Source: Pleurocapsa sp. PCC 7327
GTDB taxonomy: Bacteria; Cyanobacteriota; Cyanobacteriia; Cyanobacteriales; Microcystaceae
Assembly (NCBI RefSeq): GCF_000317025.1
Contig: NC_019689.1
Span: 1,961,501 to 2,025,500 of the forward strand
DNA length: 64,000 bases
Direction of reading: 5' to 3'
This document shows, piece after piece, positions 5,024-64,000 of the stretch; position 1 is the stretch's first letter, and every line of letters begins with the position of its first letter. The notes beneath the pieces are model-generated. The model saw only the letters and a program-made list of their open reading frames with translations. It made no database searches and was not told where the DNA came from. A program made the translations under genes and the position numbers.

Positions 5024-5063
5024 AAAAGAGAACTGCTATATGCGTTTATTGATACTTACGATG

Positions 5064-6035: not shown

Positions 6036-6163
6036 CGGCACTAAGACTACTAATTCCTATTTACGAGTATATCTGAAGCTAAGTTTAAGAGAGCTAAGGT
6101 TAAGTTCTATAAATTAAGATGTATTGTGCGATCGATTTACGTTGCTAATATTGCGTAAGGTGT

Positions 6164-6623
6164 TTAGCGATCGCGATTCTCTACTTTTGCCACTCTTGTT
6201 AACAACTCCAAGGCATTTTGATAGCCAGCGAGATCTCCTTGCCGTTCGCAGAGTTGGGCAGATGTCTGTAAATCTTGAATCGCTGCCTGCTTATCCCCTC
6301 GTCGGTAGCACAGAAGACCTCGATTTCCATAAGCCATGGCATCATTGGGATCGAGGGAAATGACCCGATCGAAATCTGCTTCAGCCAACTCCCACTGTTG
6401 TCGGTCGGCGTAAAGAAGACCCCGATTGCTGTAAGCCCCATCATAATTGGGATTGAGTTCTATGGCTTGATTGTAATCGGCTAGCGCTAAATCCCATTTT
6501 TGTAGGTTGTAGTAGACAAAACCCCGAATTATTGTAAGCTAAAGCAGAATTGGGGTTGAGGACAATGGCTTGGCTAACACGGGCTAGAGCTAATTCCCAC
6601 TGTTGCTGGTTATCATCCGACAT
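6164..6623 (-). pseudogene. TPR-repeat protein broken by a 1-nt frameshift
   Basis: Read from 6623 leftward, the first frame gives MSDDNQQQWELALARVSQAI and an N-terminal TPR unit, then loses homology. One extra T at about 6527-6531 explains this. Shifting there restores the NRGF..NLQKWDLALADYNQAI pattern, followed by two further TPR units (LAEADFDRVISLDPNDAMAY and GDKQAAIQDLQTSA), and the frame ends at 6164. The gene would otherwise encode a protein of about 153 residues with three to four TPRs. It is either a recent pseudogene or a sequencing error. TPR proteins mediate protein-protein contacts; no specific partner can be inferred. Confidence 0.75.
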
Positions 6624-6937
6624 TTTGAATTTATCTCCAACCCTAACGTCAGTTTAATTTTTCTCCCTCGGCGATCGCGAGCTAGACAAATCTTTATAAA
6701 CTATTGTGCGGAAAGTATTGACTCTCTACTGCGCGATCGCTAACTTTATATACTATTAAGTTAATGCGATCGCTCGCAGCCAATCTTTGGCAACGCGGCA
6801 TTTAGCACTTAAGAACGTCAGCTTCTCACACCAAGTTACAGTCAAAAATCTAACTTTAGTTAGTAGTAGTTGGCTAACAGCTTTCTTTAAGGTTTTACCC
6901 GGACGAAAGCCACCCCAGCATTGGCGAGATAGCAAAG
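6624..6937. other. Intergenic region upstream of tamB
   Basis: This stretch contains several GCGATCGC-type octamers but no convincing reading frame, RNA gene or strong hairpin. It must contain the promoter for the large tamB gene, but I could not identify clear -35/-10 boxes. Confidence 0.4.
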
Positions 6938-9900
6938 ATGACTAATTCTTCCCAAAACCCGCCGCCAGAGCCAAACCAGCGCCGAAATCTTTGGGCTAGC
7001 GTGCTTCGGATAACCAGACATCCGGCTACGCTAGTAATCGGAGTCTCTGTAGTTGCGATCGCAGCCGTTGGTTATGCTGCGGCTAGATATTTTATTTATC
7101 AGCAATTATCTCCGTTACTGGAGGCAGAACTCAGTAAGTTGCTCAAACGTCCCGTCGATGTCGGCGAGGTGGAAAGCCTTGCTTGGACGCTCAATCGCGT
7201 TCGCATTGGCGCTTCTTCCCTTCCTGCCACCGCAAGCGATCGCGATCGCCTCTCGCTACAATCGATAGAAGTTGGCTTTAATCCTTTTCCCTTACTACTG
7301 GGACAGCCTCTCCCAATAGAAATCGCGATCGACGATCCGAATATCTATCTCGACCAAGATAAAACAGGAAGATGGATTGACCTTGAATTAGAGCAAAGAG
7401 AAGCCCAAGAACTGCCCATCGATCTCGATATCAACGTTCGCATTCGAGATGGCGATATTGCCCTTCGTCCCTACGGAGCGACTCGCCCGGTTCCCATTCA
7501 ACTCAATGGCGGCGCAAGATATATCGACGGTGAAAAACGTGAGATTAGCTATGGTGTGGATGCTACCGTCCTCAACAGCCAAGTCAATGCAAAAGGCAAA
7601 ACAGTCATTGAGACGGGAAAAACTCAAGTCGAACTTGCCGTCGAAAAATTAGCCCTGGCTGAATTAGTCTCCCTTATCCCCAACTCGCCCGTCAAACTCA
7701 ACAGAGGGAATTTTGATACCAACTTAAACGTCAGTTTACCATCCTTTGATAGGGTAGAAAAGACTCGCGGGCAAGGCAATCTTAACCTCCAACAAATCGA
7801 AGCCAAGATCGAATCGATCGAAGCTCCCGTTCGAGCCGATCTCGCTCTTAGCCTGCAAGGGCAAAAAGTCTTCATCGAAGAAGCTAGAGCCAGTATCGAC
7901 AAGGTCGTCGATACCCGCATCGTCGGTGAAGTCGATTGGGAAAAAGGCTTGAATCTTAATGTTAGAGTCAACCCCGTCGATCTTTCCAGTCTCTTAAGGA
8001 CGATATCGGTTACTGCGCCAGTGAGAGTGGATGGAGAATTGCAAGCCAATTTACAACTGAGAGGAGCAGTCGAAAATCCCTTGGTGACAGGGACGATTAG
8101 CAATACTAAATCGCTTGAGATCGATAAAACTCGAATCAGGCAGATCGATGCGAATTTTCAAGTCGATTTAGACAAAATTGTCCTCCAGAGTTTGCAAATT
8201 CAACCCAGCGCAGGCGGACAAATTCTCGCGCATGGCACAATTGAAACCAGCATTCGCAAAGCATTAGAAGACAACCAATCCATCGATGTTGCCAAGATGC
8301 CCTTAAGCTTGAATCTCAGGGCACAATTACCAACGCGAGAAGTCTTGGCTCCTTACTATCGCTTGCCCAAAAATGCGACTATCGGCAGGCTGACTGCCCA
8401 AGCTCAAGTGCGCGGAACTTTTGAGGAGCCAGTCGCCTTTCTCAAATGGCAAGCTCCCAGGGCAACCACTCCTAACGTTGACATAGCTGGAAGGGGAGAA
8501 GTCCTTCTCATCGGAAAAAATATCTTGGTTCGCAATACCGTCCTTTGGACTGATGAAGGACAGGCTGTTGTCAAGGGCAGGGGCAATCTCGACAGCAAAA
8601 AATGGCAAGCTGTCGCTAGGGCGAACGCTATCTCGCTAGCCCCTTTCCTGTCGCCAATTTGTGCCGAAAATCCTTCTACCTACTGCTCATATGCCGTCTC
8701 GACGAACCCGAATTTAGAAACTGCCAATGTCTTGTTGTCAGGGCGCTTGGATTCTTTCGATCCCGCTACACTAGAAGGAGTTGCCGCCTTGACGGTGCGA
8801 GCCGAAAAGGGCTTAGTTGCTATCAGAAGCGAATTATCAAAGGGCGCGATCGCGGCTTCTGTCGTTGCGTCTCAAATTTCTCTCAATCCTTTTCTGTCCA
8901 ACCTAGCCGCTCCCGTTAATATAAGGCAAACGAGAGTAAATCTCTCCGGTTCGCTCAAAGATTTATTGCAAGGTTCGACCATTGCGGCGAGAAATTTTCA
9001 AGCCGATGTTGATGCCCTGCTCGACGTCGCTGATGGCGAAATAGTTGCTTCGGGCAAGCTAGAAGACGGTCTCTTAGAAGCCGTCGCTACAACGGGGCAA
9101 ATCTCCCTGACGAAATTACTCCCCAATTTGGGGTTTTCGACTCAAGTCAGAAGAGGTCAAATTAATTTGACGGGAAACTTAGCTGCTTTAGTAGCTTCGC
9201 TGGATTCTAACCCCGATGTTAGTAGCTTCAAGGCAACGGCAGATGCTCGCTTAGCCGTCGCCAACGGGATCGTGGCGGTTGCCGCTCGATTGAATAATAA
9301 TCTGTGGCAAACTGATATTCTGGCTAATAATCTCAATACATCGCAAATTCTCGATCGCATCCAACCCAATTTCAAACAACAAAACCTTGCCAATCTCGAT
9401 GGTCTAGTAAGCCTCTCTGGTAGGATTGCACCTCTGTTCCAAGATCGGGCATCTCTCCCCGTCAAAGCTGAAACCATTGCGCTGCGCCTGCGAGATCGAA
9501 CCCTCAATCTCAATGCCGATGGAATGATTCTCGTCTCCAATCCCTTCTCCGCTCCCGATCTTGCCAGCAACTTAAATGTTAAAGCCAATTCCGACCTCGA
9601 TCGCCTGCCGCTGACGGAATTAATCGCCCTCGTTCCAGTTAGACGGTCATTTTTACCGCAGAGATTGGATGTCACGGGAGACGGTCAATTTCAAGGTCGT
9701 CTGGCGGGCAAGAACTTACTTAGCGCACCGACGGCACCGGGCAATTTTCTCCTCGCGGGCAATTTAAGACTAGAAGACTTTACCCTCAACGACAGATCCT
9801 TCGACCCCGTTTTAAGCGGGCCCGTTACCGTTGCCCCAGGACGGGAAATCGCCCTCAATTTGCAAGGCGAAGACGATACGATCGCTGCCAACCTAGATCC

Positions 9901-12670
9901 TTGCACTCGTCGCAACTGTCCCGCTCCTTATTGGGTATCTTTCTGGGAAGTGCGACAAACCACGGAAGGTCTGCCTGAAATTGTCTCCCATGGGAGACAA
10001 ATTGGCGATCGCTTGGTCGCCCAAGTGGAAAACTTCCCCCTCGAACTTTTAAGTATTGCACCTGCTGAGGACTACGGAATTCTGGGAACGATTGAGGGAC
10101 AATTGAGCGCCAATCTCGACTTCAATCTCTTTACGCTGACTGGTAGAGGCGATATCGCGATCGACCGCCCCCGCATCGGCAACCGCCAAGGCAGAGCCTT
10201 CAATGCCAGCTTTACCTATGAAAATAACATCGCCCAACTCAATAGCGCCGTCTTGCAGCTCGACAAAAGCCGCTACGAGGGACAAGGAGCCATCAACCTC
10301 GCGTCGGGAGCCATTAGAGGAAGGCTGAAAGCCGAAGAAGGCTACATGGAAGATGTTTTGGGTGCCCTACAAATCTACGACCTTCCGACCCTAGTAAGCT
10401 TCCTGCAATTTCAGAAACCCGACTACGCGGCAGCCGAGCAAGTTCAACCCGAATCTAGGGGCAATGCCAATGCTTCGATAGCCGAGCAAGTCAATCGGCT
10501 GTGGGCGATCGATAAGAAGATTCGAAAACTCGTCGCCCAAAGAGAAGCGGGCGGAGTTCCCACCGAGTTAAATATTCGCGGAGCCTTTGACACGACGATT
10601 ACTGTAGATGGAACGCTCCAGAATCCCCAAATCAACTTTCAATTCCAGGGAAATAACTGGGAATGGCATCCCCAACCGACCTTTGCCACGATAGTCGAAC
10701 CCTTGGGATTAGTTACGGCAGATACGCAGATAATTCCCATCGATAACATCGTCCTTCAGGGCAGCCTGCAAAATGGCATAGTTCGGGTAGAACCAGCAAG
10801 AGTTCAAATCAGAGACTCGATCGCGTCTTTTGCAGGAGGGTTTATCCCTGCCACCCAAAGCCTACAACCGTCAGAATTGGTCGTCGAAAATTTATCGGTC
10901 GATACGGTTAATAGTTTCATTCAGCTTCCCGCAGATATCGCGGGCAACCTCAAGGCAAGAGCAGCTTTGTCGGGTAACTTGCTCGCTCCGAAGATTCAGG
11001 GAGAGTATCGCTTCACCGATGCTTCGTTTGGCGGTCGGCTTATCGAGCGCACTCTGGCAGGCAATTTTAACTATGTCAATTCCCGCCTGGAATTCCGTAC
11101 CACCGATGACTCGGCAATCCAGCTCTATGCAAGCGTTCCCTATCCAACCGCGCCAGAAACCAACGATCGCGTCGCGATCGATCTCAAGCTGGGCACGGCA
11201 GCTCTTTCATTAATGGAAATCTTCACCCAGGGACAGGTATCCTGGTTGGGTGGAGAAGGAGAAGTGGCGCTACAAGCCAGCGGACGACTGGATTTGAGCG
11301 AAGGGTTCAGGATGTACGACTTGACGGCTAACGGTCGAGCGCTCCTCCAAGATGCCACACTTAGGAGTGCGGCTTTACCAGAGCCGCTGAATGTCAACGC
11401 TCAGATCGCGCTCGATAACCAACTCCTGAGAGTCGAGCAGTTAGAGGGAACCTTTGCCCAAAGCAGACTGACGGCGGCTGGAGTTCTGCCCCTCTTTACT
11501 CCCCTCAGTCGCCAAGATCCCAATGCAGCCAATCCCCTGACAATCGCGATCGAGCAAGGACAAATCGATTTAGAAAATCTCTACCGAGGGGGAATCGATG
11601 GCAGAGTAACGGTAACAGGTGCAGCGATTGTGCCCCTAATTTCAGGACGAGTGCGCTTGAGCGACGGTCAAGTCTTCGTCCCGCAACAACAGGCGGCAAA
11701 CAATACTCAAGCCATTCCCATCGTCAGGCAACCCGCTTCCCCTCCTCGCAGGAACGATGTCGCGCTTTTTGTGCCGAGACTCGACAATTTGCAAGTTGCT
11801 CTAGAAAGATTGTCGGTGGATGCGCCTTTGTATCGGTTTGATTTTGGCGGTGCTTTAGCGCTGAGCGGTCCCGTTAACGATCTCAACAACTTGCAGCCCC
11901 AGGGAACTATTACCTTAAACCGAGGAAGGGTTAGTTTTTTGGAAACTCGCTTTCTCTTGGATCGCCGCTATCGCAATGTTATCGTCTTCAATAGACGACG
12001 AGGTTTGCTCGACCCAGACCTCGATCTGAGAATGAGAACCATCGTCTCCGATTTTCCCAACGCTAGGCAACAGCGCACCGATTTCAGCAACGAGATTCCC
12101 GACGATAATCTCAGCAGAGTCAGAAGAATTGATATCACTCTAAGCGTAGAAGGGCAGCTCAGTCAGTTGGTGCCCGGTTTGGGCAGAAATATCGCTGAAG
12201 TTTGCCAAATACAACCCGCTTCCCTGCCGCCGATTCCTGGGCAGAGAACCCTCTCCCAACAAGAGTTACAACGCCTACAAACCTGCCTACAAGCGATCGC
12301 TGCCAGAGGTCAGTCGAACGCGCAGTTGCTCAGCAATCCTGCCGTAGATTTGTCTAGCAATCCTAGCCGAACTGATGGGGAAATCGTCCGTCTCTTGGGC
12401 GAACAGTTCTTTTCCGTGGCAGAGGTTCTACAAAACCTAAACACCGATCAGCTTTTGGAGTACGGTTTGATTCAACTCGCATTGCCTATGGCATTACAGG
12501 GAGTTGTTTACGATGTCGAAAATACAGTAGGAAACCTAGTGGGTTCCTCAGATCTGCGCCTTTTCCCCCTCATACAAACCAGTTATCGAGTAAGCGAAGA
12601 TTCATTTGTCGGCGTTTCCTACGATTATACGTTCAATGAGTTTAAAGTCGAGTATCAAACGCGATTTTAG
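6938..12670 (+). CDS. tamB: TamB-like translocation/assembly module protein
   Basis: The 1910-residue protein starts with a short polar segment and one N-terminal membrane anchor (about residues 29-50, TLVIGVSVVAIAAVGYAAARYF). A very long beta-rich body of repeated strands follows. The C-terminus (about residues 1550-1910) is the conserved TamB/DUF490 domain, ending in LIQTSYRVSEDSFVGVSYDYTFNEFKVEYQTRF with an aromatic last residue. Proteins of this family bridge the inner and outer membranes and help outer-membrane protein assembly or lipid transport. Cyanobacterial homologues are usually 1500-2200 residues, so the length is normal. No Omp85/TamA gene is adjacent in this window. Confidence 0.88.
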   Translation: MTNSSQNPPPEPNQRRNLWASVLRITRHPATLVIGVSVVAIAAVGYAAARYFIYQQLSPLLEAELSKLLKRPVDVGEVESLAWTLNRVRIGASSLPATASDRDRLSLQSIEVGFNPFPLLLGQPLPIEIAIDDPNIYLDQDKTGRWIDLELEQREAQELPIDLDINVRIRDGDIALRPYGATRPVPIQLNGGARYIDGEKREISYGVDATVLNSQVNAKGKTVIETGKTQVELAVEKLALAELVSLIPNSPVKLNRGNFDTNLNVSLPSFDRVEKTRGQGNLNLQQIEAKIESIEAPVRADLALSLQGQKVFIEEARASIDKVVDTRIVGEVDWEKGLNLNVRVNPVDLSSLLRTISVTAPVRVDGELQANLQLRGAVENPLVTGTISNTKSLEIDKTRIRQIDANFQVDLDKIVLQSLQIQPSAGGQILAHGTIETSIRKALEDNQSIDVAKMPLSLNLRAQLPTREVLAPYYRLPKNATIGRLTAQAQVRGTFEEPVAFLKWQAPRATTPNVDIAGRGEVLLIGKNILVRNTVLWTDEGQAVVKGRGNLDSKKWQAVARANAISLAPFLSPICAENPSTYCSYAVSTNPNLETANVLLSGRLDSFDPATLEGVAALTVRAEKGLVAIRSELSKGAIAASVVASQISLNPFLSNLAAPVNIRQTRVNLSGSLKDLLQGSTIAARNFQADVDALLDVADGEIVASGKLEDGLLEAVATTGQISLTKLLPNLGFSTQVRRGQINLTGNLAALVASLDSNPDVSSFKATADARLAVANGIVAVAARLNNNLWQTDILANNLNTSQILDRIQPNFKQQNLANLDGLVSLSGRIAPLFQDRASLPVKAETIALRLRDRTLNLNADGMILVSNPFSAPDLASNLNVKANSDLDRLPLTELIALVPVRRSFLPQRLDVTGDGQFQGRLAGKNLLSAPTAPGNFLLAGNLRLEDFTLNDRSFDPVLSGPVTVAPGREIALNLQGEDDTIAANLDPCTRRNCPAPYWVSFWEVRQTTEGLPEIVSHGRQIGDRLVAQVENFPLELLSIAPAEDYGILGTIEGQLSANLDFNLFTLTGRGDIAIDRPRIGNRQGRAFNASFTYENNIAQLNSAVLQLDKSRYEGQGAINLASGAIRGRLKAEEGYMEDVLGALQIYDLPTLVSFLQFQKPDYAAAEQVQPESRGNANASIAEQVNRLWAIDKKIRKLVAQREAGGVPTELNIRGAFDTTITVDGTLQNPQINFQFQGNNWEWHPQPTFATIVEPLGLVTADTQIIPIDNIVLQGSLQNGIVRVEPARVQIRDSIASFAGGFIPATQSLQPSELVVENLSVDTVNSFIQLPADIAGNLKARAALSGNLLAPKIQGEYRFTDASFGGRLIERTLAGNFNYVNSRLEFRTTDDSAIQLYASVPYPTAPETNDRVAIDLKLGTAALSLMEIFTQGQVSWLGGEGEVALQASGRLDLSEGFRMYDLTANGRALLQDATLRSAALPEPLNVNAQIALDNQLLRVEQLEGTFAQSRLTAAGVLPLFTPLSRQDPNAANPLTIAIEQGQIDLENLYRGGIDGRVTVTGAAIVPLISGRVRLSDGQVFVPQQQAANNTQAIPIVRQPASPPRRNDVALFVPRLDNLQVALERLSVDAPLYRFDFGGALALSGPVNDLNNLQPQGTITLNRGRVSFLETRFLLDRRYRNVIVFNRRRGLLDPDLDLRMRTIVSDFPNARQQRTDFSNEIPDDNLSRVRRIDITLSVEGQLSQLVPGLGRNIAEVCQIQPASLPPIPGQRTLSQQELQRLQTCLQAIAARGQSNAQLLSNPAVDLSSNPSRTDGEIVRLLGEQFFSVAEVLQNLNTDQLLEYGLIQLALPMALQGVVYDVENTVGNLVGSSDLRLFPLIQTSYRVSEDSFVGVSYDYTFNEFKVEYQTRF

Positions 12671-12777
12671 AATTGGGCTACTAACTTTTCTCTATCTGGT
12701 AGGCTAACTATTATCATCCCAATCTTTTTTGTCATGGTTTTGGGAATCCTATCAATTTTCTAGTGTGCCTAGTAGCT

Positions 12778-13308
12778 ATGTTAATCCATACAACTCCCCG
12801 CCTTTCTTTTCCTCGTCCCCTAGTCTATGCCACTTACCGAGACAAGTTAATCGAGCTGGTGCCTTACCTGCCCAACGTGCGTTTTCTCAAAATCAAGTCC
12901 CGCTCTGAAGCAGAAGGGCAAGTTTACAGCGTCAACGAGTGGCACGCTGGCGGACAAATTCCCCCGTTATTAAGGGCTTGGCTGGGTGAAGAGCTTCTCT
13001 CATGGACAGAATACGATATCTGGAATGAGTCTGACTTTACTGTAGAGTGGCGGATTGAAACCCATGCTTTCACTGAAGCCGTTCGCTGTTCGGGAAAAAA
13101 TCTTTTTCTCGAAGAGAACGGCACGACGCTTATTGAAAGCCGGGGCGAACTGAAGATTGACCAAGAAAAACTCAAGGCAGTGCCAAAGATCTTCAGAGGT
13201 CAAGTGACGCGAGCTGTCGAAAAGTTCTTAGCCAGTAAGATCGAACCTAACTTGTTGCAGATGGCTGAGGGAGTGAGTCACTATCTGGCACAACAATCTT
13301 TGGGCTAG
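12778..13308 (+). CDS. SRPBCC-like (polyketide cyclase/START fold) protein
   Basis: This protein of about 176 residues opens MLIHTTPRLSFPRPLVYATYRDKL and alternates beta-strands (FTVEWRIETHAF, GTTLIESRGELKID) with a long C-terminal helix (FRGQVTRAVEKFLASKIEPNLLQM). That is the pattern of START-like SRPBCC proteins, which bind hydrophobic ligands. The ATG at 12778 is preferred over the GTG at 12763 because the family-like sequence begins there. It lies 82 bp upstream of the cysteine synthase gene on the same strand. The ligand is unknown and the family call rests on fold pattern rather than a recognised motif. Confidence 0.6.
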   Translation: MLIHTTPRLSFPRPLVYATYRDKLIELVPYLPNVRFLKIKSRSEAEGQVYSVNEWHAGGQIPPLLRAWLGEELLSWTEYDIWNESDFTVEWRIETHAFTEAVRCSGKNLFLEENGTTLIESRGELKIDQEKLKAVPKIFRGQVTRAVEKFLASKIEPNLLQMAEGVSHYLAQQSLG

Positions 13309-13390
13309 ATGAGGTTTGAGCAATGCCCGCCTTCTAGTTTTTAAGCAGGTTTATTCGCTAATCTGGAAATTAGCAAGTCATTCGAGGAAT

Positions 13391-14380
13391 ATGGACATCA
13401 AAGACGGTTTCGTCGGCACGGTTGGCAATACGCCCCTGATTCGGTTAAACAGCTTCAGCGAAGAAACTGGGTGTGAAATCTTAGGAAAAGCAGAATTTCT
13501 CAATCCGGGTGGCTCGGTGAAGGATAGAGCTGCCTTGTACATTATCAAGGATGCGGAAGAAAAAGGGAAGCTAAAACCGGGAGGGACAGTTGTAGAAGGA
13601 ACGGCTGGCAATACGGGGATTGGATTAGCTCATATTTGCAACGCCAAGGGCTATAAATGCCTCATTATTATTCCCGATACCCAGTCGCAAGAGAAAATCG
13701 ACCTGTTGAGAACCCTGGGGGCAGAGGTTCGCACCGTACCGGCCGTTCCCTACCGAGATCCTAATAATTATGTCAAACTGTCGGGACGCTTGGCGCAGGA
13801 GATGGAAAATGCGATCTGGGCAAATCAATTCGACAATCTAGCCAATCGACGAGCGCACTACGAAACGACCGGACCGGAAATTTGGGCGCAAACCGATGGC
13901 AAAATCGATGCCTGGGTGGCTGCGACGGGAACTGGCGGCACTTATGCAGGGGTTTCTCTGTTTTTAAAGGAGAAGAACCCCGATATTAAATGTATCGTAG
14001 CCGATCCGATGGGCAGCGGTCTTTACAGTTACGTCAAGACTGGAGAAATTCATGTTGAAGGGAGTTCGATTACAGAAGGAATTGGCAATAGTCGCATCAC
14101 TGCTAATATGGAAGGCGCTCCCATTGACGATGCAATTCAAATAGACGATAAAGAAGCGGTACGGGTAATTTACCAACTTCTGTACGAAGACGGTTTATTT
14201 ATGGGCGGTTCCGTAGGGATTAACGTGGGAGCAGCGGTAGCCTTAGCCAAACAGATGGGACCCGGACATACGCTCGTTACCGTTCTGTGTGATGGTGGGG
14301 CTAGATATCAGTCTCGCTTGTTTAATCAAGAGTGGCTAGCGGCTAGAGGACTTTTGCCGGAACATTGGCAAGTTAAATAA
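13391..14380 (+). CDS. cysK: Cysteine synthase (O-acetylserine sulfhydrylase)
   Basis: The protein makes cysteine from O-acetylserine and sulfide using pyridoxal phosphate. The PLP-binding lysine lies in NPGGSVKDRAA, the substrate-binding loop is EGTAGNTGIG, and the phosphate-binding glycine loop is ATGTGGTYAG. All are intact. I place the start at ATG 13391, preceded by GAGGA, rather than 13316, because MDIKDGFVGTVGNTPL is the usual N-terminus and 329 residues is normal for the family. The C-terminal end (EWLAARGLLPEHW) resembles the cysteine synthase A type common in cyanobacteria. It should act as a cytoplasmic dimer in sulfur assimilation. Confidence 0.93.
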   Translation: MDIKDGFVGTVGNTPLIRLNSFSEETGCEILGKAEFLNPGGSVKDRAALYIIKDAEEKGKLKPGGTVVEGTAGNTGIGLAHICNAKGYKCLIIIPDTQSQEKIDLLRTLGAEVRTVPAVPYRDPNNYVKLSGRLAQEMENAIWANQFDNLANRRAHYETTGPEIWAQTDGKIDAWVAATGTGGTYAGVSLFLKEKNPDIKCIVADPMGSGLYSYVKTGEIHVEGSSITEGIGNSRITANMEGAPIDDAIQIDDKEAVRVIYQLLYEDGLFMGGSVGINVGAAVALAKQMGPGHTLVTVLCDGGARYQSRLFNQEWLAARGLLPEHWQVK

Positions 14381-14510
14381 TTGCGATCGCGCCTGATATC
14401 CAATTGGGAATTAAAGAGGTCTTATGTAGTGCGATCGCAACGCTCGCCAATCATTCCCAAAAAGCGACTCCTGTTGGTCGCATATGACATACCTATTTTA
14501 GGATGCTCGC

Positions 14511-14960
14511 CTATACTTGTTCTTTGCTGTCAAACAATTCTTTGATTCGTTTTTCTATCTCTTCGGTTGATACATCCTCTTGGTGAGTTGCAATCCACCA
14601 ATGATTTCCAGTTGGATCTTTCACCCCCGCACTGCGATCGCCCCAGAATTCATCTTTTGGTACCATCATTGAAGTCCCACCGGCTTTTAGGGCATTCTCA
14701 TAAGTTGCGTCGGTATTTTCAACATACAGGTAAATAAAACTCGACATTGGCTTGCACTCCCCTCTTGCTTCGCTCACCATAATTACTGAGTCGCCAATTC
14801 TAACCTCAGCGTGCATGATGCCGCCTTCTGGGTGTAAGATACGACAAATTTCCTTTGCTTCAAACCCTTGCTCAAGAAACTCGATTAAGGTTGCAGATCC
14901 TTGCACGACAAGGTAAGGCGTAACAGTACCATAACCTTCAGGAATTGGTTTGACTGCCAT
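14511..14960 (-). CDS. VOC/PhnB-like glyoxalase-fold protein
   Basis: A 149-residue protein with the paired beta-alpha-beta-beta-beta modules of the vicinal oxygen chelate superfamily. It shows TPYLVVQGSATLIEFLEQGF at the start, MHAEVRIGDSVIMVSEA in the middle, and VKDPTGNHWWIATH at the end, which resembles the PhnB/YdcJ-type subgroup. Such proteins bind a divalent metal and act on varied small molecules, and the substrate cannot be told from sequence. An SD-like GGAGA lies upstream of the ATG. The neighbours (cysteine synthase, azoreductase) do not define a pathway. Confidence 0.8.
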   Translation of the reverse strand: MAVKPIPEGYGTVTPYLVVQGSATLIEFLEQGFEAKEICRILHPEGGIMHAEVRIGDSVIMVSEARGECKPMSSFIYLYVENTDATYENALKAGGTSMMVPKDEFWGDRSAGVKDPTGNHWWIATHQEDVSTEEIEKRIKELFDSKEQV

Positions 14961-15184
14961 TATCGTTGTCTCCTTGGAATGAGAATAAATGAATTATAGT
15001 ACAAATGAACTAAAAAATCTACAATTGTTTTACGAACGTTAATGAGATTCATAGTTGACCTCCTCACAATTAATTCAAGCTGTGCTTCAACTGCATCTAT
15101 ATGGTCTTTAGCGATCGCTACTTCAGAAGCTAGTGGAAATAGGTAGTGCTTGTAGAGCGTCGCACGCCAATGTAGTGCTTTGTC

Positions 15185-15817
15185 TTACCTTTTTACCAGT
15201 TGAGCGATTTTGGCACGAGCAGACGCGATCGCATCTGCTAACTTCTGTCCGCCGTACTCGTCGTTTTCAACCTCAATCAATGTAATGTCTGTAATGCCTA
15301 TGAAACCAAAAATTGTTGCCAAATAAGGAGTTTGATAATTCATGGTCTCGTATTGTCCACCTACACCAAAACCAGAACCACCTCTTGCTGCGATGATAAA
15401 CATTTTCTTACCCAGTACGAGCGGTTTGTAGGGGTTTTCAGAATCCTCTGGTTCAAAGGCAAATGTCCGCCCAATCCGGACAATTTGGTCGATATAAGCC
15501 TTTAATGTACTGGGAATGCTGAAATTGTACATAGGAACGCCAATGACGTAGAGATCGGCAGCTAAGAATTCGTCCACTAGGCGATCGCTGATGCGAATTG
15601 CTTCCTGGAGTTGAGGAGTTCGTTGTTCTGGTGGTGTATAGGCTGCTGCGATCCAGGGTTCATCGACATGAGGAACGGGATTGCGAGCAATATCCCGATA
15701 GGTGACAGTATCGTTTGGATGGGCTTGCTTCCATTGCTCGACAAACTCTCTGGTCATGCGGCGAGAGTGCGAGCGATCGCCGCGCGGACTAGAATCAATG
15801 TGCAATAGATGTGCCAT
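15185..15817 (-). CDS. azoR: FMN-dependent NADH-azoreductase
   Basis: The protein has a flavodoxin-like fold: the FMN-phosphate loop is SSPRGDRSHSRRM, the second flavin contact is VPMYNFSIPSTLKAYID, and the third is AARGGSGFG. These are the AzoR signatures. The enzyme reduces quinones and azo compounds with NADH and acts in the cytoplasm. I choose ATG 15817 because GGGAGG lies just upstream; the 15829 alternative would place the SD inside the gene. A divergent AraC regulator at 15980 is a plausible controller of this gene. Length (210 residues) is normal. Confidence 0.9.
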   Translation of the reverse strand: MAHLLHIDSSPRGDRSHSRRMTREFVEQWKQAHPNDTVTYRDIARNPVPHVDEPWIAAAYTPPEQRTPQLQEAIRISDRLVDEFLAADLYVIGVPMYNFSIPSTLKAYIDQIVRIGRTFAFEPEDSENPYKPLVLGKKMFIIAARGGSGFGVGGQYETMNYQTPYLATIFGFIGITDITLIEVENDEYGGQKLADAIASARAKIAQLVKR

Positions 15818-15979
15818 ACTTCCTCCCAAACAATTACCCTTCCAGCTTAGGCAAACGATTCAGATCTAACTATCTGATTTTTGTGCAACTATCAAAATCT
15901 TGCGGTCAGTTTTCAGCATGCTCGGTGGGAACCATCCGAAAGCGAATACAATCGGAACTAGACGAGTTGGGTTTGCATC

Positions 15980-16852
15980 ATGAAACCTTCAGCCAACGAC
16001 CAAATTGAAACGACCTGCTTGCCCATTTTGTCGAGTCGAAACCAGGGTTGGGAGAATATTTTAGTCGAGCAATATCAACACCAATCGGGCCAGGGGAGAA
16101 CTCATTACAGCGACGAACACGCGATTTGCCTGTCGCTTGCATCCCGTCCAGTTCGCTTTCTACAAATTAAGGAAGGCAAAACTCATGCGAGTTTGTACGG
16201 CAAGGGTGACATTTCCATCACTCCTGCAAAGATGGCGTTTTTTGCCCGTTGGGAGGGAGAGGATCGCTACTTGCAGATTCGCATTGCATCTGGTTTTGTT
16301 CAAAGTGTCGCTAGAGAAACCATTGACATCAATCCCGATCGCCTGGAATTAATTCCTGAATTTCGGACTCGCGATCCACACATTGAGTCGATTGGTATGT
16401 TGTTGCTCTCGGAACTCCAACAGGAAAATTTAGGCGGAAGGCTCTACATTGAATCGCTGGCAAATGTCTTAGCGGTGCATTTGCTCAGACAATACTCTGC
16501 TCCCAAACCTCTCCTTGCCATTTACGAAGGGGGTTTATCCCAGCGTCAAGTTTTACAAGTCTTGGATTACCTCAACGAACATCTCAATCAAGATATTAAG
16601 CTTGCAGATTTAGCTCAATTGCTAGGCATGAGTCAATTTCATTTCAGCCATTTGTTTAAGCAGTCGCTCGGAATAGCTCCCTATCAATACTTGCTCCAGC
16701 AACGGATCGAACGGGCAAAACAGTTGTTGAAACAAACCGAGCGCTCAATTATGGAAATTGCCCTAGAGTGTGGGTTCAACAGCCACAGTCATCTGAGTAA
16801 ACAGTTTCGGCAGCTTACAGGCATGACGCCGAAAGCCTACAGAGCAAATTAA
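15980..16852 (+). CDS. AraC-family transcriptional regulator
   Basis: The 290-residue protein has an N-terminal cupin-like sensor half and a C-terminal double helix-turn-helix (about residues 190-290). HTH1 includes DIKLADLAQLLGMSQFHFSHLF, and HTH2 includes RSIMEIALECGFNSHSHLSKQF, ending FRQLTGMTPKAYR, the classic AraC/XylS signature. It is divergently transcribed from the azoreductase gene with a 162-bp gap, so it may control both genes. The ligand is unknown. The N-terminal part lacks the AraC arabinose-binding residues that I would expect, so it is not the arabinose regulator. Confidence 0.87.
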   Translation: MKPSANDQIETTCLPILSSRNQGWENILVEQYQHQSGQGRTHYSDEHAICLSLASRPVRFLQIKEGKTHASLYGKGDISITPAKMAFFARWEGEDRYLQIRIASGFVQSVARETIDINPDRLELIPEFRTRDPHIESIGMLLLSELQQENLGGRLYIESLANVLAVHLLRQYSAPKPLLAIYEGGLSQRQVLQVLDYLNEHLNQDIKLADLAQLLGMSQFHFSHLFKQSLGIAPYQYLLQQRIERAKQLLKQTERSIMEIALECGFNSHSHLSKQFRQLTGMTPKAYRAN

Positions 16853-47274: not shown

Positions 47275-49638
47275 TTACCCAATTGCCGCCATACGAGCCA
47301 AGAAAAACGCCCAGGTTGTCACAATTCCCCCTAGGAGGTAATGAGCGACTCCTACGGCTCGACCGTGGATGATACTCAAAGCGCGAGGCTGAATGGCTGG
47401 CGTAATTTTGAGCTTGTTGTGCGCCCAAACGATCGACTCGATCAGTTCCTGCCAATAACCGCGGCCGCTAAAGAGGAACATAAGGCTGAAGCCGAAGATG
47501 AAATGTCCGCCCAAGAACAGCAAGCCATAGGCGGACAGTGCGCCACCATAAGAGGTGATAGCTTGAGTGGCCTGTGCCCATAAGAAATCGCGCAACCAGC
47601 CGTTATTCGTAATCGAGCTTTGCGCCCAGTTGCCCAAAGTAATGTGAGTTATCGAGCCATCGGCATCGACTGTTCCCCACACGTCCGATTGCATCTTCCA
47701 GAAGAAGTGGAAAATGACGATCGACAGGGAGTTGTACATCCAGAACAAGCCTAGGAAAACGTGATCCCAAGCCGATACTTGGCAAGTGCCGCCGCGACCG
47801 GGACCATCGCAGGGGAAGCGGAAGCCCAGTTCCGATTTGTCGGGAATCAGACGAGAGTTGCGGGCATATAGTACGCCTTTGAGCAGCACCAACACTGTTA
47901 CGTGAATGGTGAAGGCATGGATGTGGTGAATGAGGAAGTCTGCCGTACCCAGAGTAATGGGCATCATGGCAATTTTGCTACCAACGGCGACTACTCCGCC
48001 ACCGAAAGCATAGCTGACAGGTTCGCTCAAGCCAGGGGCTGTAGTCCCCAGTCCCGACAGTTCGATATTCCGCAGTCCGCCAAAGACATTGCCCAAGGGC
48101 TGTGCTGCTTGTCCAACCCCGACCGCTGCCGTGTGAACGTGTTGAATCCACTGGGCGAATACGGGTTGTAATTGGATGCCAGTATCTGAGAACATGTCTT
48201 GAGGGCGACCAAAAGCTCGCATCGTATCGTTGTGACAATACATGGCAAAGCTATGAAAGCCTAAAAATTGGCACACCCAAGCTAGGTGGGAAATAATGGC
48301 ATCTCGGTGACGGATGACGCGATCGAGGACATTGTTGACGTTCTTGGCAGGATCGTAGTCCCGTACCATGTAGATAGCGGCGTGAGCGGCAGCACCAACG
48401 ATCAGAAAGCCGCCAATCCAGACGTGATGGGTGAACAGAGATAGCACGGTGGCATAGTCTGTTGCCAAGTAAGGATAGGGCGGCATGGCATACATGTGAT
48501 GAGCGACGATAATGCTCAGCGAACCTAACATCGCCAAGTTGATCGATAGCTGCGCGTGCCAAGAAGTGGTGAGGGTTTCAAAGAGACCTTTGTGACCTTC
48601 TGGCCCGATAAAGCTTAAGAATGGCAGCATGTTGGGAGTTCTGGCATCATCGAGCATTTCTTTGATGCTGTGACCGATGCCCCAGTTGGTTCGGTACATG
48701 TGTCCGGCAATGATAAACAGCACTGCGATCGCGAGGTGATGGTGCGCCGTATCCGACAGCCACAAGCCTCCCGTTGCCGGATTCAGACCGCCTTTGAAGG
48801 TAAGAAAATCGGCGTACTGACCCCAGTTGAGCGTGAAGAACGGAATCACACCGCTGGGAAAACCCCAATTTACGTGGGGATATAGCTGTTGCATCAAACT
48901 GGGGTTGAGGATGAACTCGTGGGGTAGGGGAATTTTCTCGATGGGAACTCCGCGATCGAGCATCTGGTTAATCGGCAAGGCGACGTGAATTTGGTGCCCC
49001 GCCCATCCCAGCGAGCCAAGACCGAGCAAGCCCGCTAGGTGGTGATTCAGCATTGCCTGCACGTTCTGGAACCATTCCAGTTTGGGCGCTCGCACGTGGT
49101 AGTGGAACCAGCCAGCAAATAGCATCAAGGCTGCCATGACTAGCCCGCCTATAGCAGTGCAGAAAAGCTGAAACTCATTGGTGATGCCAGAGGCACGCCA
49201 AAGTTGAAAGAGACCGGATGTGATTTGAATGCCATGGAAGCCTCCCCCTACGTCGGCGTTGAGGATGTCTTGACCGAAAATGGGCCAGACGACTTGAGCG
49301 CTGGGCTTGATGTGTAGGGGATCGGCAAGCCAAGCGGTATAGTTAGAAAACTTAGCGCCATGAAAATACATGCCGCTCAACCAGACGAAGACGACGGCAA
49401 GATGCCCAAAGTGAGCGGAGAAAATCTTGCGCGATACGTCTTCGAGATCGCTGGTATGACTGTCGAAATCGTGAGCGTTGGCGTGGAGGTTCCAAATCCA
49501 GGTGGTGGTTTTTGGACCTCTGGCTAGAGTGCGATCGAAGTGTCCCGGCTTTGCCCAGTTTTCAAAGGAAGTGGGCACCGGATTGTTATCGACGACCACT
49601 CTTACCTGTTGCTCCGGTTTCGGAGGCGTAATGGTCAT
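47275..49638 (-). CDS. psaA2: Far-red photosystem I core subunit PsaA
   Basis: I start at ATG 49638, preceded by AAGGAG, not 49686. The 787-residue protein opens [19 protein letters not shown] and has the Fx loop [18 protein letters not shown]. It is about 35 residues longer than ordinary PsaA. A lumenal loop between [13 protein letters not shown] and [11 protein letters not shown] is expanded, which fits far-red paralogues as I know them. It is the first gene of a six-gene operon with psaB2, psaL2, psaI2, psaF2 and psaJ2, the known FaRLiP PSI order. Confidence 0.92.
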
Positions 49639-50575
49639 TGCAACTCTCCTTATGACGATTTGATTTTTTGCCAAAAACTCTGTCACTAGGCAGAGAAGAA
49701 ATTCTCTGTCTAAGATGTTAAAGTCTGTTTAGAGCCAGATCTTGCACCTTTGGCATCAACGCCTAGAATAAAGTTCTAGGCTCAAAGCTTAATTCGATTA
49801 AAATAGACTGAAATTCCTATCGGGTCTTCTTTAGAAGACTTCTTCGATCGGACAGGAAATTCATTACAAAAGCGGTTGTTGCCACTGCTGCAAGATCGCA
49901 ATTTAGACAGACTTAATCTTTGAGTTCCAAGCAACATACTTGTTGTTGGCAAACTAAAACCTATTGGAGGATAATGGCACGAAAACATCCTCACCTGTAG
50001 AGATAAAATTGATGGGGATGAAGATATTCGGCGGTTTAGCTAAATATTTAAGAATAAGATTGAACCAAGGCGAGTATCTACGCTCGTTTAGCGGCATAAA
50101 TTCAAGACTCCTTACTTAGGGTTAGATTGGTTCTCTTCACAGCGGTTTCCGAGGCCAGATGCGAGAGAGAAACCTTGCGCGATCGTAACTAAAATGTTTG
50201 TTATCAAACTACTCTCGATTCAATAGATAGATTTATTTGAATGAAGTAGTTTTTTAATGCTCAATGTTTTTGGTCGTTAAGAAATAAACTGCTCGATTAG
50301 AAACTTAGCAAAAACTGAGATAAGTTTGTACCAGTTCGTCTTTTTTTTAACAAAAGTTTAAATAAAGTGAGCGATCGCTCATCTAATTTTGCAAAAAATC
50401 TCAATAACCTTCTCCAAATGTAAAAAAAAATTAAACTTTAATAAATTCAATTTAATTTTTTAGCTAAAAAGAAAAATATTGACTGCTTAAAATCCGAGTC
50501 AATCCTTTGTGCGATTAAATCATAGACTTTTATCAATAAAAATCTGCAGCATTGATGCAGATAAAGTAATAAAGC
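49639..50575. other. Divergent intergenic region between psaA2 and rfpB
   Basis: This 937-bp gap separates the leftward psa operon from the rightward rfp genes and must contain both promoters. It is AT-rich between about 50200 and 50575. It holds one copy of a dispersed repeat (49753-49873) and a CAGAGA/TCTCTG inverted repeat near 49693-49710. I see no convincing gene in it. Short open frames here are not supported by coding character. Confidence 0.6.
49753..49873 (+). repeat. Dispersed repeat, copy A
   Basis: This element of about 120 bp begins GCATCAACGCCTAGAATAAA, contains two hairpins (a GCCTAGAA/TTCTAGGC pair and GTCTTCTTTAGAAGAC), and ends GATCGGACAGGAAATTC. A close copy in inverse orientation lies at 55755-55860 beyond rfpC, so the pair brackets rfpB-rfpA-rfpC. 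Confidence 0.8.
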
Positions 50576-60733: not shown

Positions 60734-61080
60734 TTAATTTTGCCTATTTCAGGAATAGGCAAGGGAAATCGGAAACCGTTCGCCAATCTTTTTCTCAATA
60801 ATCTCGATCGCCGAGCCAAAAATTATTTGCTTTTAGCAACAAAATTATTGCTAATGTAGCACAAAATCAAATTCTGCAACGCCATAGTTGTCTAATAAAA
60901 TACCATTCAATCCAGAAATAAACCTGGTTGGGTTCGGTTGCCCAAAAAATTGTAAAGATTGAAAATCAGTGAAAAATTTCATCGGTTTTTCAGAATTTTT
61001 CTCTACCCTACAAGATAGGACTGGCAAGATTTGAACGGCAGTCAACAACTTAGCAAAGCCATTGAGCTTCCTAGCATCAA
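60734..61080. other. Intergenic region before the degenerate receiver
   Basis: Sequence upstream of the SufR fragment carries only scattered short frames; a 64-codon plus-strand frame at 60665-60859 is mostly the antisense of the SufR remnant. I see no other gene, terminator or strong promoter. Confidence 0.4.
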
Positions 61081-61479
61081 ATGCACATGACAACATTGCC
61101 AACCCGACGCATCCTGCTCATTAGTCAGGAAAAAGCGGTGCAGGAGATTACTCAGATTTGTCTAGAAACAGTTGCCAACTGCGAAGTACTGACAGCAGAT
61201 TCGGGCAATGAGGGAATAGCCAAAGCCGAGACTCAACAAGTTAACGCTATTCTTCTCGATCTCGACGAGATGACGGTCGATCCGGACTGGCGCGCGATCG
61301 TGCAAACGCTCCAAAATAACCCGGCTACTCGGCGCATCCCCGTAATTTTGTTAACAACTACGGAACACTCCAAAGATTTACCTCAATTTAATCAAACGGG
61401 AGTAAGGGCAGCGATCGCTAAATCTTTCGATCTTCTAACTCTAGCAAGTCAAGTTGCGGCAGCGCTAGAGTGGAACTAA
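61081..61479 (+). CDS. Degenerate CheY-like receiver, RfpC paralogue
   Basis: The 132-residue protein aligns with RfpC (QICLETVANCEVLTADSGNEGIAKAE against QICLEVTGDWEVLTASSGREGLAKAA), but the acidic pair is replaced (LLISQEKAV instead of LIIDDEDDI). The acceptor-position Asp is kept in LLDLDEM, the Thr in LLTTTEH, and the Lys in AKSFDL. Loss of the pocket acids makes normal phosphorylation unlikely. It may act as a phosphorylation-independent partner or be decaying. It sits between the SufR remnant and psbA3. The first ATG (61081) and one at 61087 both fit. Confidence 0.85.
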   Translation: MHMTTLPTRRILLISQEKAVQEITQICLETVANCEVLTADSGNEGIAKAETQQVNAILLDLDEMTVDPDWRAIVQTLQNNPATRRIPVILLTTTEHSKDLPQFNQTGVRAAIAKSFDLLTLASQVAAALEWN

Positions 61480-61701
61480 TCCACTCAATTGTAACTTTTT
61501 GTTAAGACAGTAACTTCTTTCATAAGTTTTTCAGGTTTTTTTCGTACTCTCCTAAACAAGCTAGTTTTTTAATTTGACTAGCCAGCGTCAATCGTTTTCC
61601 CAATCTTGCTCGATAGGGCAAGACAGTCAATTTCACTTTTTCCCTTTTAGGAGAATCGATTTTTCGGAAGACATTTTTTAATGTTTGCTTCCTAAAATAA
61701 T

Positions 61702-61762
61702 CCCCTCGCCTCTGGCCTCGGAAACCGCGACGAGGGGAAATTCCATACCCTTTTAGTAAGGA
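61702..61762 (+). promoter_or_regulatory. Structured leader element, copy 1 (upstream of psbA3)
   Basis: The sequence has a hairpin closed by CCCCTCG (61702-61708) and CGAGGGG (61731-61737). Inside is the motif CTCGGAAACCG. It is followed by TTCCATACCCTTTTAGTAAG, ending in an SD-like AAGGA. The same order of parts recurs immediately upstream of chlF (63172-63235). This copy lies about 260 bp from the psbA3 ATG. No known riboswitch class matches as far as I can tell. Confidence 0.6.
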
Positions 61763-62021
61763 TTGTCTATCTATGATACCGCATGAATTTACCCTTAAGC
61801 TATCTATCCACGGGAGTCTTTTGGATAAACGCTTAACCAAGCCGAGACTTCTTAGGGTAGATAGTCCCCATTCTCCAAGAATTTGTTGGCTCGTTTAGTA
61901 AAGAGCGAGTCAGAGCTATGATTTCGCCAAGATGCCCGAATCTTTGCGATCGCGCAAGGTTCTCAACTTACCTGAGTTTGTTGAGTTCAAATTTCTGCTG
62001 AAAAAAACACTGGTCAATTCT

Positions 62022-63104
62022 ATGACGACAACTCTTCAAAAACGCGAAATTCCTAACTTATGGGAACAGTTTTGTCAATGGGTCACCAGTACCGAAAATC
62101 GCCTTTACATTGGCTGGTTTGGGGTGCTAATGATTCCACTGCTCGGAGTCTCCACCACGGTTTTTGTTCTCGCCATCATTGCTGCTCCTCCCGTGGATAT
62201 GGACGGACTCCGCGAACCGATAACGGGTTCGCTCCTCTATGGCAATAACATCATTACTGCGGCCGTCGTTCCTACTTCCAACGCCATCGGCTTGCACTTT
62301 TATCCCATTTGGGAAGCAGCCTCTATGGACGAATGGCTATATAACGGCGGTCCCTATCAAATGATTGCTCTCCACTACGTCCCAGCCCTGTGTTGCTATC
62401 TAGGACGAGAGTGGGAGTTGAGCTATCGCCTCGGCATGCGTCCTTGGATTTGCGTTGCTTTCAGCGCTCCTCTTGCTGCCACGACATCCGTTTTTCTAAT
62501 TTATCCTCTCGGACAAGGCAGCTTCGCCGATGGTCTTCCCATGAGTATTAGTGGCACGTTCAACTTTATGTTCGTCTTCCAAGCCGAACATAACATCCTC
62601 ATGCATCCCTTCCACATGCTGGGAGTTGCTGGTGTATTTGGAGGTGCTTTTTTCTGTGCCATGCACGGTTCGCTAGTGACTTCTAGCCTGATTCGGGAGA
62701 CTAGCGAGAACGAATCGCAAAACTATGGTTACAAGTTCGGACAAGAAGAAGAAACTTATAACATTGTTGCCGCTCATGGCTACTTCGGTCGCCTGATCTT
62801 CCAGTACGCCAGCTTTAACAATAGCCGCAACCTGCACTTCTTCTTAGCCGCTTGGCCAGTAATTTGCATCTGGTTTACGGCTTTGGGGATCTGCGTCATG
62901 GCGTTTAACCTCAATGGATTCAACTTTAATAATTCCATCCACGACGCTCAAGGTCGGGTGTTGCCTAGCTGGGCAGATGTGATTAACCAGGCCAATCTCG
63001 GTTTTGAAGTTATGCACGAGCGCAATGCTCACAACTTCCCACTCGATCTTGCCAGTGGCGAGGCTATCCCAGTTGCTTTACGTGCCCCTGCAATTGCTAG
63101 TTAG
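62022..63104 (+). CDS. psbA3: Far-red photosystem II D1 protein
   Basis: I start at ATG 62022 ([17 protein letters not shown]), where D1 proteins start; the frame is open to 61932. The 360-residue D1 keeps every Mn-cluster ligand: Asp in FADGLPM, Glu and His in FQAEHN, and the C-terminal [17 protein letters not shown]. It also keeps Tyr-Z and the P680 His. It differs from the ordinary D1 at 39.7 kb in many helix positions, with Glu at position 130 ([11 protein letters not shown]) and [13 protein letters not shown], consistent with far-red D1. It should evolve oxygen with chlorophyll f/d-containing PSII. Confidence 0.93.
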
Positions 63105-63123
63105 ATTGAGTTTTCTCCAAAAA

Positions 63124-63137
63124 AGACGCGAGCGTCT
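63124..63137 (+). terminator. Weak hairpin after psbA3
   Basis: AGACG/CGTCT with a 4-nt loop lies 20 bp after the psbA3 stop, preceded by a run of A and followed by GCTTTAG. It could be a weak terminator between psbA3 and chlF, but its short stem makes read-through likely. Confidence 0.4.
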
Positions 63138-63171
63138 GCTTTAGTCAAGTTACTATCTCCAAACAAGTTAC

Positions 63172-63235
63172 CCCCGTCGTCTCTAAACTCGGAAACCGGG
63201 GCGATGGGGTTATCTCCTACCCTTTCTGTAAGGAG
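63172..63235 (+). promoter_or_regulatory. Structured leader element, copy 2 (upstream of chlF)
   Basis: CCCCGTCG (63172-63179) pairs with CGATGGGG (63202-63209) through eight pairs including one G-U. It encloses the same CTCGGAAACCG motif as copy 1. A second hairpin follows, CTCCT (63214-63218) with AGGAG (63231-63235). The latter is the Shine-Dalgarno sequence, 7 nt before the chlF ATG. This arrangement could hide the ribosome-binding site. Confidence 0.65.
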
Positions 63236-63242
63236 TTAATAC

Positions 63243-64000
63243 ATGGTACAGCAAGAGCCTACTCTCACGCCTTCGATTGAAGTGGATTCTGCTATTGAAT
63301 CTCCAACAGAGTCAACGACTGCTCTCAATAGACGCGAAACTCTATTAGCCAAGTGGGAGGAATTTTGTCGATGGATTACCAGTACCGAAAACCGCATTTA
63401 TATTGGCTGGTTTGGGGTAATCATGATTCCGACCCTTTCAACGGCTGCGATCGCATTTATCATTGCTTTCATCGTCGCTCCTCCAGTCGATTGGGACGCA
63501 ACGGGCGCGCCTGTGACTGGCGCTTTACTCGGCGGCAACAATCTGATTACGGCTGCGGTTATTCCTACCTCCTCAGCCATTGGTCTGCATTTTTATCCTA
63601 TTTGGGCAGCAGCTTCAATCGATGAGTGGCTGTACAATGGCGGTCCTTACCAGCTCATCGTGCTGCATTTTTTGATCGGCATTATTTGCTATCAAGATCG
63701 GGAGTGGGAATTGAGCTATCGCCTCGGCATGCGTCCTTGGATTTCCCTCGCTTTCACCGCTCCCGTTGCTGCTTGCATATCGGTGTTTTTAGTCTACCCT
63801 GTCGGACAAGGAAGCTTTTCTGAGGGAATGCCGTTAGGAATCTCCGGCACGTTTAACTTTATGTTGCGATTTCAAGCCGATCACAATATCCTGATGAATC
63901 CTTTTCATCAGATAGGAGTCATTGGGGTATTGGGCGGTGCTTTTTTAGCTGCCATGCACGGTTCGTTGGTCACGTCAACGCTCATTCGTAAGACGGGCGA
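63243..64000 (+). CDS. chlF: Chlorophyll f synthase (super-rogue D1), cut at the window end
   Basis: The visible 252 codons encode a D1-like protein with a 30-40 residue N-terminal extension ([20 protein letters not shown]). The Mn ligands are altered: Asp170 is Glu (FSEGMPLG, own residue 194) and Glu189 is Asp (FQADHN, own 213). The ChlF-specific Gln-Asp pair stands at own residues 151-152 ([13 protein letters not shown]), where D1 has Met-Gly. Tyr-Z (VYPVGQGS) and the P680 His (FHQIG) are kept. ChlF uses light to turn chlorophyll a into chlorophyll f. The C-terminal half lies beyond the window. Confidence 0.92.

Follow-up and report, generated by a model that had tools for sequence, protein, structure and literature searches.

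A conserved hairpin leader upstream of chlF, psbA3 and psaA operons of cyanobacteria

Leader copies in a far-red gene cluster

The window, by which we mean the whole analyzed stretch of 64,000 nucleotides (G000:C1:1961501-2025500), belongs to a genome consisting of a single contig of 4,986,817 bases. It holds a far-red light photoacclimation (FaRLiP) cluster, of the sort that enables some cyanobacteria to use far-red light for photosynthesis. The cluster extends beyond the window end; gene names are our own assignments from sequence relation and gene order. The minus strand carries psaA2-psaB2-psaL2-psaF2, then come rfpB-rfpA-rfpC, and after rfpC psbA3-chlF-psbB2-psbD3-psbC2-psbH2 followed by far-red apc genes. 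A preliminary description of this DNA had reported two copies of a hairpin motif before psbA3 and chlF. Both were found where it had placed them, each with the 11-mer CTCGGAAACCG (at 61717 in copy 1 and at 63188 in copy 2), and a third copy, which had been missed, heads the psaA2 operon. The features are as follows; R1 is a covariance model and SD the Shine-Dalgarno sequence.

60978-60992, plus strand: second promoter-type box TTCATNNGTTYTTCA of the window
61519..61533, plus strand: promoter-type box TTCATNNGTTYTTCA, then a T run and TACTCT; distance to leader copy 1, 164 nt
61698..61765, plus strand: leader copy 1 (psbA3 operon), 80.5 bits and E 5.1e-21 with R1; R1 seed member, used in alignment A4 and in the pair counts
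61701-61710/61729-61738, plus strand: P1 stem of copy 1, with one C.A mismatch
61714-61715/61725-61726, plus strand: inner pairs of copy 1, enclosing the loop at 61716-61724
61758-61762, plus strand: SD AAGGA of copy 1, after a pyrimidine tract
61773..61898, plus strand: ORF of 41 codons beginning at the SD-ATG of copy 1, start MIPHEFTLK
62022..63104, plus strand: psbA3 (far-red D1, name assumed), 360 aa, its ATG 249 nt 3' of the leader ATG
63169..63237, plus strand: leader copy 2 (chlF), outside the R1 seed, 47.2 bits and E 8.6e-11; E 2.6e-8 with a sequence-only model
63172-63181/63200-63209, plus strand: P1 of copy 2; both inner pairs are broken; SD AGGA at 63231-63234
63243..64000, plus strand: chlF, extending past the window end and starting at the leader's own ATG
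50106..50172, minus strand: leader copy 3 (psaA2 operon), R1 seed member
50169-50160/50141-50132, minus strand: P1 of copy 3, its lower stem mismatched in places; SD AGGA at 50112-50109
49954..50097, minus strand: ORF of 47 codons beginning at the SD-ATG of copy 3
47275..49638, minus strand: psaA2, ATG at 49638, first gene of psaA2-psaB2-psaL2-psaF2 (names assumed)

Allowing up to one mismatch, the 11-mer occurs seven times in the window compared with 1.35 expected, and one of its three exact matches (50143-50153, minus strand) lies in copy 3. Similarity extends from P1 through four codons of the ORF between copies 1 and 2, and from P1 as far as the SD between copies 1 and 3; outside the leader and first codons, upstream or further downstream, similarity among the window copies did not exceed that of shuffled sequence. 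With the likeness of copies 1 and 2 limited in this way, and with the sites in other genomes given below, confinement to the locus or a recent local duplication, which the preliminary description had named as grounds against its proposal, is excluded. The same description had both leaders, with their SD, in front of D1-type genes. The SD of copy 2 serves chlF, which uses the leader ATG at 63243; the SD of copy 1 serves the 41-codon ORF (ATG 61773) and not psbA3 (62022). Single-copy folds beat their shuffled versions only slightly (z -1.0 to -2.4), which is weak evidence; the real support is comparative. Between the two promoter-type boxes, just 5' of psbA3, a CheY-like receiver protein (PF00072) is encoded at 61081-61479 on the plus strand, which is a protein other than RfpC (49% identity in the matched part).

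Occurrence of the leader across genomes

Scanning genome contigs for ChlF yielded 54 loci, and in some Leptolyngbya-type, Nostoc and Hydrococcaceae genomes stems of other sequence with the same kind of loop were seen 5' of chlF. Covariance models were built from nine leaders (R1) and from 32 matches (R2). Matches were obtained in 19 of the 388 genomes of an order sample (E ≤ 0.01), in 8 of 26 genomes reached via chlF-type loci (E ≤ 0.1), in 11 genomes of a class sample of 388, and in 6, 5, and 4 genomes of three families of 27, 42, and 36 genomes. As these samples overlap and some genomes carry two handles, they were merged by hand via identical coordinates; a site was counted if it reached E < 1e-3 in at least one run, seeds included.

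The covariance-model search, proposed in the preliminary description as a check, thus gave 37 sites in 25 genomes from several cyanobacterial families: 15 at chlF, 8 at psbA3, 11 at psaA, and 3 before other small ORFs (two in G135, one in G377). All are in sense orientation to the next gene, 34 of them precede chlF, psbA3 or psaA, and they show covariation. The idea that the leader is particular to D1-type proteins was not borne out, given the 11 sites that head psaA. On a tree, the psaA genes of G000, G490, G579, and G592 fall in the far-red PsaA clade, G514 forms its basal branch, and G454 and G517 fall in the canonical clade. Those of G002, G003, and G570 are 86–99.7% identical to the window PsaA2 (tblastn), and that of G528 is a fragment, as in G454 and G517.

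Since R1 and R2 contain the stem and could favor paired sites, a sequence-only model (R3) of the same nine leaders was run over 34 loci. It recovered 26 of the 28 non-seed sites at E ≤ 0.0054, missing the two G135 sites, and gave E 0.002–0.007 on two chance loci (L116, L119). In L115, L124, L125, L126, L127, and L131 its matches start at model position 9–16, so that most or all of the 5' arm was unused, yet the arm pairs. The sites were therefore not selected by pairing alone. Weak matches (E 0.002–0.1) in L116–L120, where a far-red gene is absent nearby, were taken as chance, as was one in the same range in L232, which reads like a DnaK coding sequence. Simpler markers were set aside: the rigid pattern CCCC..TCGGAAACCG..GGGG matched in 7 of 388 class genomes, six of which, all besides the window genome, are absent from the class model matches, and the bare 11-mer gave 72 matches, many in unrelated sequence, compared with 39 for a reversed control (19 genomes).

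The G135 sites (loci L150 and L152; E 1.7e-4 and 5.1e-4 with R2) were not recovered by R3 at E 0.01 and are doubtful. They precede a 96-aa ORF near ParM/StbA-like genes in a plasmid-type operon, and their loop GACCUGAGAAAUC is that of the chlF leaders in the same family. The small protein has two distant plasmid relatives, with no leader match at E 1, and plasmids held no DNA match to copy 1. Among viral contigs, 17 loci carry the loop 17-mer, the best R2 match reaching E 0.017 over model positions 10–35, and a second pattern gave zero matches there. In G723 a weak 24-bit match (L162, 8833–8887) lies between psbA3 and far-red apc genes, with no SD at the usual distance, and is possibly a decayed copy. 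The G377 leader (L156, 5592–5989) is followed by a 108-aa ORF that starts like Leptolyngbya-type ChlF (MLSQFSDAIA); chlF is absent after this ORF on the 8.7-kb contig, and the ORF is perhaps a chlF remnant.

In the window genome only the three leader sites reached E ≤ 0.01, and at this threshold the leader is absent at four other full-length D1-like genes and at canonical psaA. Among 24 genomes with chlF beside other far-red genes, seven carry the leader, all at chlF; in the other 17, many of them MAGs, no match was found genome-wide at E ≤ 0.1, so that far-red photoacclimation can proceed in its absence. Three f61 genomes, one of them 77% complete, showed only D1-/D2-type matches to ChlF; there the leader precedes psaA, which is of canonical type in both genomes placed on the tree (G454 and G517). 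The leader is thus neither necessary for far-red photoacclimation nor, as far as shown, strictly limited to far-red genes.

Far-red operons have a conserved promoter-type box, TTCATNNGTTYTTCA, on their 5' side, with a T run and then a hexamer like TACTCT after it. Within 900 nt 5' of the chlF match it is exact at 22 of 27 chlF loci and present with up to two mismatches at 24 (these loci, within L029–L078, include a few near-copies). It stands 68–164 nt before all eight psbA3 leaders. Of the 13 chlF leaders, 10 have it at a distance of 76–384 nt, and the remaining three follow psbA3; it was not found in the 1200 nt 5' of any of the 11 psaA leaders. As the box is upstream of most psbA3 and chlF leaders, the hairpin should be transcribed there. 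The box is likely the binding site of RfpB.

Structure, spacing and reading frames

A plain MAFFT alignment (A4) was made of 31 of the 37 leaders, leaving out three near-copies from G002, one leader from G720 and the two from G135. All 12 pairs show two-sided compensatory changes and 89.8% of 371 cells are paired, which agrees with the earlier remark that the stems differ between copies with pairing kept. The covariation score was 0.555, compared with 0.264 in shuffled alignments and at most 0.221 for slid partners, and 29 further pair types were counted against 24.7 in shuffles (9 of 500 reach 29). An earlier, model-fitted alignment (A3) was unexceptional in two of five measures, namely pairs with two-sided change (9 compared with 7.6; 96 of 500 shuffles) and further pair types (24 compared with 21.7; 59 of 500 shuffles), and exceptional in the other three (0 of 500). 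RNAalifold, unaided, returned the same hairpin with 11 pairs, all with two-sided changes, and found no second helix in the leader alignment. When the 3' half of the 15 rows below 75% identity was block-shuffled, 0 of 2000 shuffles reached the observed pairing or number of compensated cells. In 10 of the 31 rows the outermost pair does not form, and pair 9-39 is broken in 7.

Over 76 aligned columns the consensus is a single hairpin. A P1 of about 10 bp is followed by an internal loop (5' UCU, 3' GC), two pairs (GG/CC or GA/UC) and an apical loop of 9 nt, mostly CCUNRGAAA. A GAAA tetraloop closed by columns 23-24/29-30 was rejected, as 55.7% of its cells are paired, whereas the inner pairs 17-18/29-30 reach 96.7%. 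For the inner part of two Nostoc-type leaders, a longer hairpin around UAG is possible. A conserved paired structure, compensatory change and a fixed place in 5' leaders, the general marks of such RNAs, are all present, and a conserved cis-acting 5'-leader RNA is well supported. The preliminary description had proposed a conserved cis-acting RNA for translation of the far-red D1 proteins; its first element, the conserved cis-acting RNA, stands, on covariation and occurrence in several families.

The distance from the P1 end to AGGA is 17–24 nt (mean 20.2, n = 34, P1 length being assumed in three), and AGGA precedes ATG by 8–12 nt in 33 of 34 leaders, the psbA3 leader of G490 having ATC. It had been noted that the SD of copy 2 is itself paired (CTCCT/AGGAG). 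This pairing is indeed part of the predicted fold, but over the 31 leaders the mean SD pairing was 0.71 compared with 0.70 in linker-shuffled controls, and 16 leaders lay above their own control mean. With SD pairing no stronger than in shuffles, action of the leader by hiding the SD is not supported, and we dropped SD sequestration as its mode of action. CTCC/GGAG pairing is possible in single leaders, those of the window chlF, SU_1_2 chlF and f61 (CTCC-GTAA-GGAG in f61 psaA).

At chlF the ATG after the leader is the chlF start. Behind psbA3 and psaA leaders it opens a separate ORF, of 11 to 126 codons in general, of 225 codons in G570 and of 234 codons, with a receiver domain (Pfam), in G514; translation of the photosystem protein is therefore not directly set by the leader before psbA3 and psaA2. 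Differences at codon positions 1, 2, and 3 of these ORFs were 15, 14, and 19 between two f61 genomes, 10, 5, and 14 between two f16 genomes, 2, 4, and 4 for the window psbA3 ORF against Hydrococcus, and 2, 1, and 5 for the psaA2 ORF; of seven pairs of ORFs compared, two change most at third positions. These differences give no clear sign that the ORFs before psbA3 and psaA are under coding constraint, which would be weak at most. Given the variable length and the little third-position excess, initiation rather than the peptide seems to be kept. The ORF start MIPQEFTLKPSI behind the Hydrococcus psbA3 leader resembles the start of the window ChlF (12 residues compared), and the ORF before psbA3 and psaA2 looks like a left-over or copied chlF start. 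The gene order is leader-chlF-psaA2 in the f33/f41 genomes with a leader and leader-chlF-psbA3-apc in G647. The cassette may have begun at chlF and then stayed at, or been copied to, operon heads.

Known RNAs and possible function

Rfam 15 gave no family match for the window (gathering thresholds), the two leader regions (lax thresholds) or 17 related loci (gathering), and the preliminary description had not recognized it as a known riboswitch. The leader resembles the psaA RNA motif (RF01752), an RNA with secondary structure described from putative 5' UTRs of psaAB operons in cyanobacteria and not found there upstream of other psa genes (PMC2864571). According to the same source RF01752 has three hairpins, often with UNCG loops, whereas the leader is one hairpin with a CCUNRGAAA-type loop. 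With cmscan, RF01752 was not found in the window at gathering, at E ≤ 10 in 49630–50560, or in the 17 loci at gathering. Another likeness is to PhotoRC-I and PhotoRC-II (RF01716/RF01717), RNA structures linked to photosynthetic reaction-center genes, probably psbA (PMC2864571). PhotoRC-I had no match in the window or leaders, its best genome match (E 0.5) lying away from the leaders and under the cut-off, and PhotoRC-II had none in the window or leaders, nor in the 17 loci at gathering. The hairpin 5' of a strong SD also recalls the ompA type of mRNA stabilizer, in which a stem-loop close to the 5' end of the mRNA precedes such an SD; in contrast to a merely protective stem, for which this would be needless, the leader has a conserved inner loop sequence. 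An intrinsic terminator or attenuator was rejected: by eye, A4 shows no U run conserved 3' of P1, and only f16 psbA3 leaders have short ones. Judged by titles and abstract openings of the journal papers searched, neither a published leader of this kind nor the promoter box was found; in the same literature, no publication joined ‘far-red light photoacclimation’ with ‘untranslated region’, and, for FaRLiP, the word riboswitch was met only in a reference list. As a cis-acting leader RNA the element forms a new family, its kind being already known from the psaA and PhotoRC motifs; its function we infer.

We consider it fairly probable that the leader is a 5' module for translation initiation and mRNA stability whose hairpin loop is read by a trans factor. 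Structure, conservation, position and gene association are observed; recognition of the loop, the effect on initiation and stability and the link to far-red light are the conditional part. The hairpin of about 10 bp, with its inner part UCU / GG-CCUNRGAAA-CC / GC some 20 nt 5' of a good SD and start codon, would be placed at the upstream edge of the initiating ribosome on far-red photosystem mRNAs. A trans-acting factor, most plausibly an RNA-binding protein, would read the conserved loop and, once bound, set ribosome loading and the lifetime of the whole operon mRNA. The ORF so loaded would be chlF itself at chlF, and a separate, mostly short ORF before psbA3 and psaA2. This 5' module is favored by the narrow place 5' of the initiation region, the conserved loop and an SD-ATG kept over poorly conserved ORFs. 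That the loop is read by an RNA pairing with all of its 11 nt is unlikely, the genome having five such sites on both strands, three of which are the leaders.

D1, PsaA, and ChlF are thylakoid membrane proteins, and the hairpin might accordingly be a zip-code or chaperone site through which an RRM-type RNA-binding protein takes photosystem mRNAs to the thylakoid. Rbp3/RbpG are reported as binding proteins or chaperones of photosynthetic mRNAs, those of psbA and psaA among them (PMC11500504), and a protein of this kind may be one candidate for the bound factor of the 5' module as well. Since the ordinary psbA and psaA of the window genome carry no hairpin, it is not a general photosystem mRNA signal, and we regard the zip-code reading as unlikely. 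The conserved loop, together with the CTCC...GGAG pairing open to several chlF leaders and to the f61 psaA leaders, could also suggest a riboswitch in which loop and internal loop bind a small ligand, such as a chlorophyll precursor, and switch the pyrimidine tract between a free and an SD-bound state. One small hairpin with a 9-nt apical loop offers little for a ligand pocket, SD pairing did not exceed the shuffled controls and RNAalifold saw no second helix, which makes a riboswitch rather improbable.

The position 5' of co-regulated operons would suit a DNA operator dyad for a regulator such as RfpB, but the arms vary and stay complementary while the loop is conserved, the reverse of what a dyad operator would show. 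The element is moreover always in sense orientation at a narrow distance to the SD, and a separate promoter-type box lies further 5' of most chlF and psbA3 leaders; an operator is hardly credible. Common descent of a copied chlF gene start, with functionless copies at psbA3 and psaA2, would explain why the ORF starts resemble those of ChlF. Yet the copies at psbA3 and psaA2 must be old, as three genomes of the genus have them and they recur in family f16. Their stem sequences have drifted apart while the pairing, the SD and in most cases the ATG persist, which neutral decay would not produce, and the G490 psbA3 leader has lost its ATG and kept the hairpin, so that copying alone is very unlikely.

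Carrying the 5' module further, we tentatively suggest that a dedicated trans factor, with the hairpin as its recognition site, might join the mRNAs of psaA2 (PSI), psbA3 (PSII) and chlorophyll f synthase in a single far-red regulon that acts after transcription, the hairpin having arisen on chlF and been copied to, or left at, other operon heads with a short decoy ORF. To our knowledge, accounts of how far-red photoacclimation is regulated deal with transcript levels and the phytochrome cascade RfpABC, a picture that published work fits (PMC6424891). A leader common to the operons for PSI, PSII and chlorophyll f synthase would bring in regulation after transcription; being small and testable, it would also be a useful component for transferring far-red photosynthesis to other hosts. 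The leader may in addition record how the gene cluster evolved, as leader and chlF-like start can persist where chlF is not at the operon head.

At two loci from one genus, whose matches to ChlF were all D1-/D2-type, L166 of G454 (4823–10143) and L167 of G517 (11146–16208), canonical-clade psaAB follows the leader and an ORF of 122 or 126 codons; G454 has a further psaA elsewhere. In G514, in whose genome a full-length ChlF was not seen, psaA is without a stretch of PsaA2 (residues 508–530 unaligned). Its locus (L170, 2129–5751) comprises the leader, the 234-aa receiver-domain ORF and this psaA, which is basal to the far-red PsaA clade.
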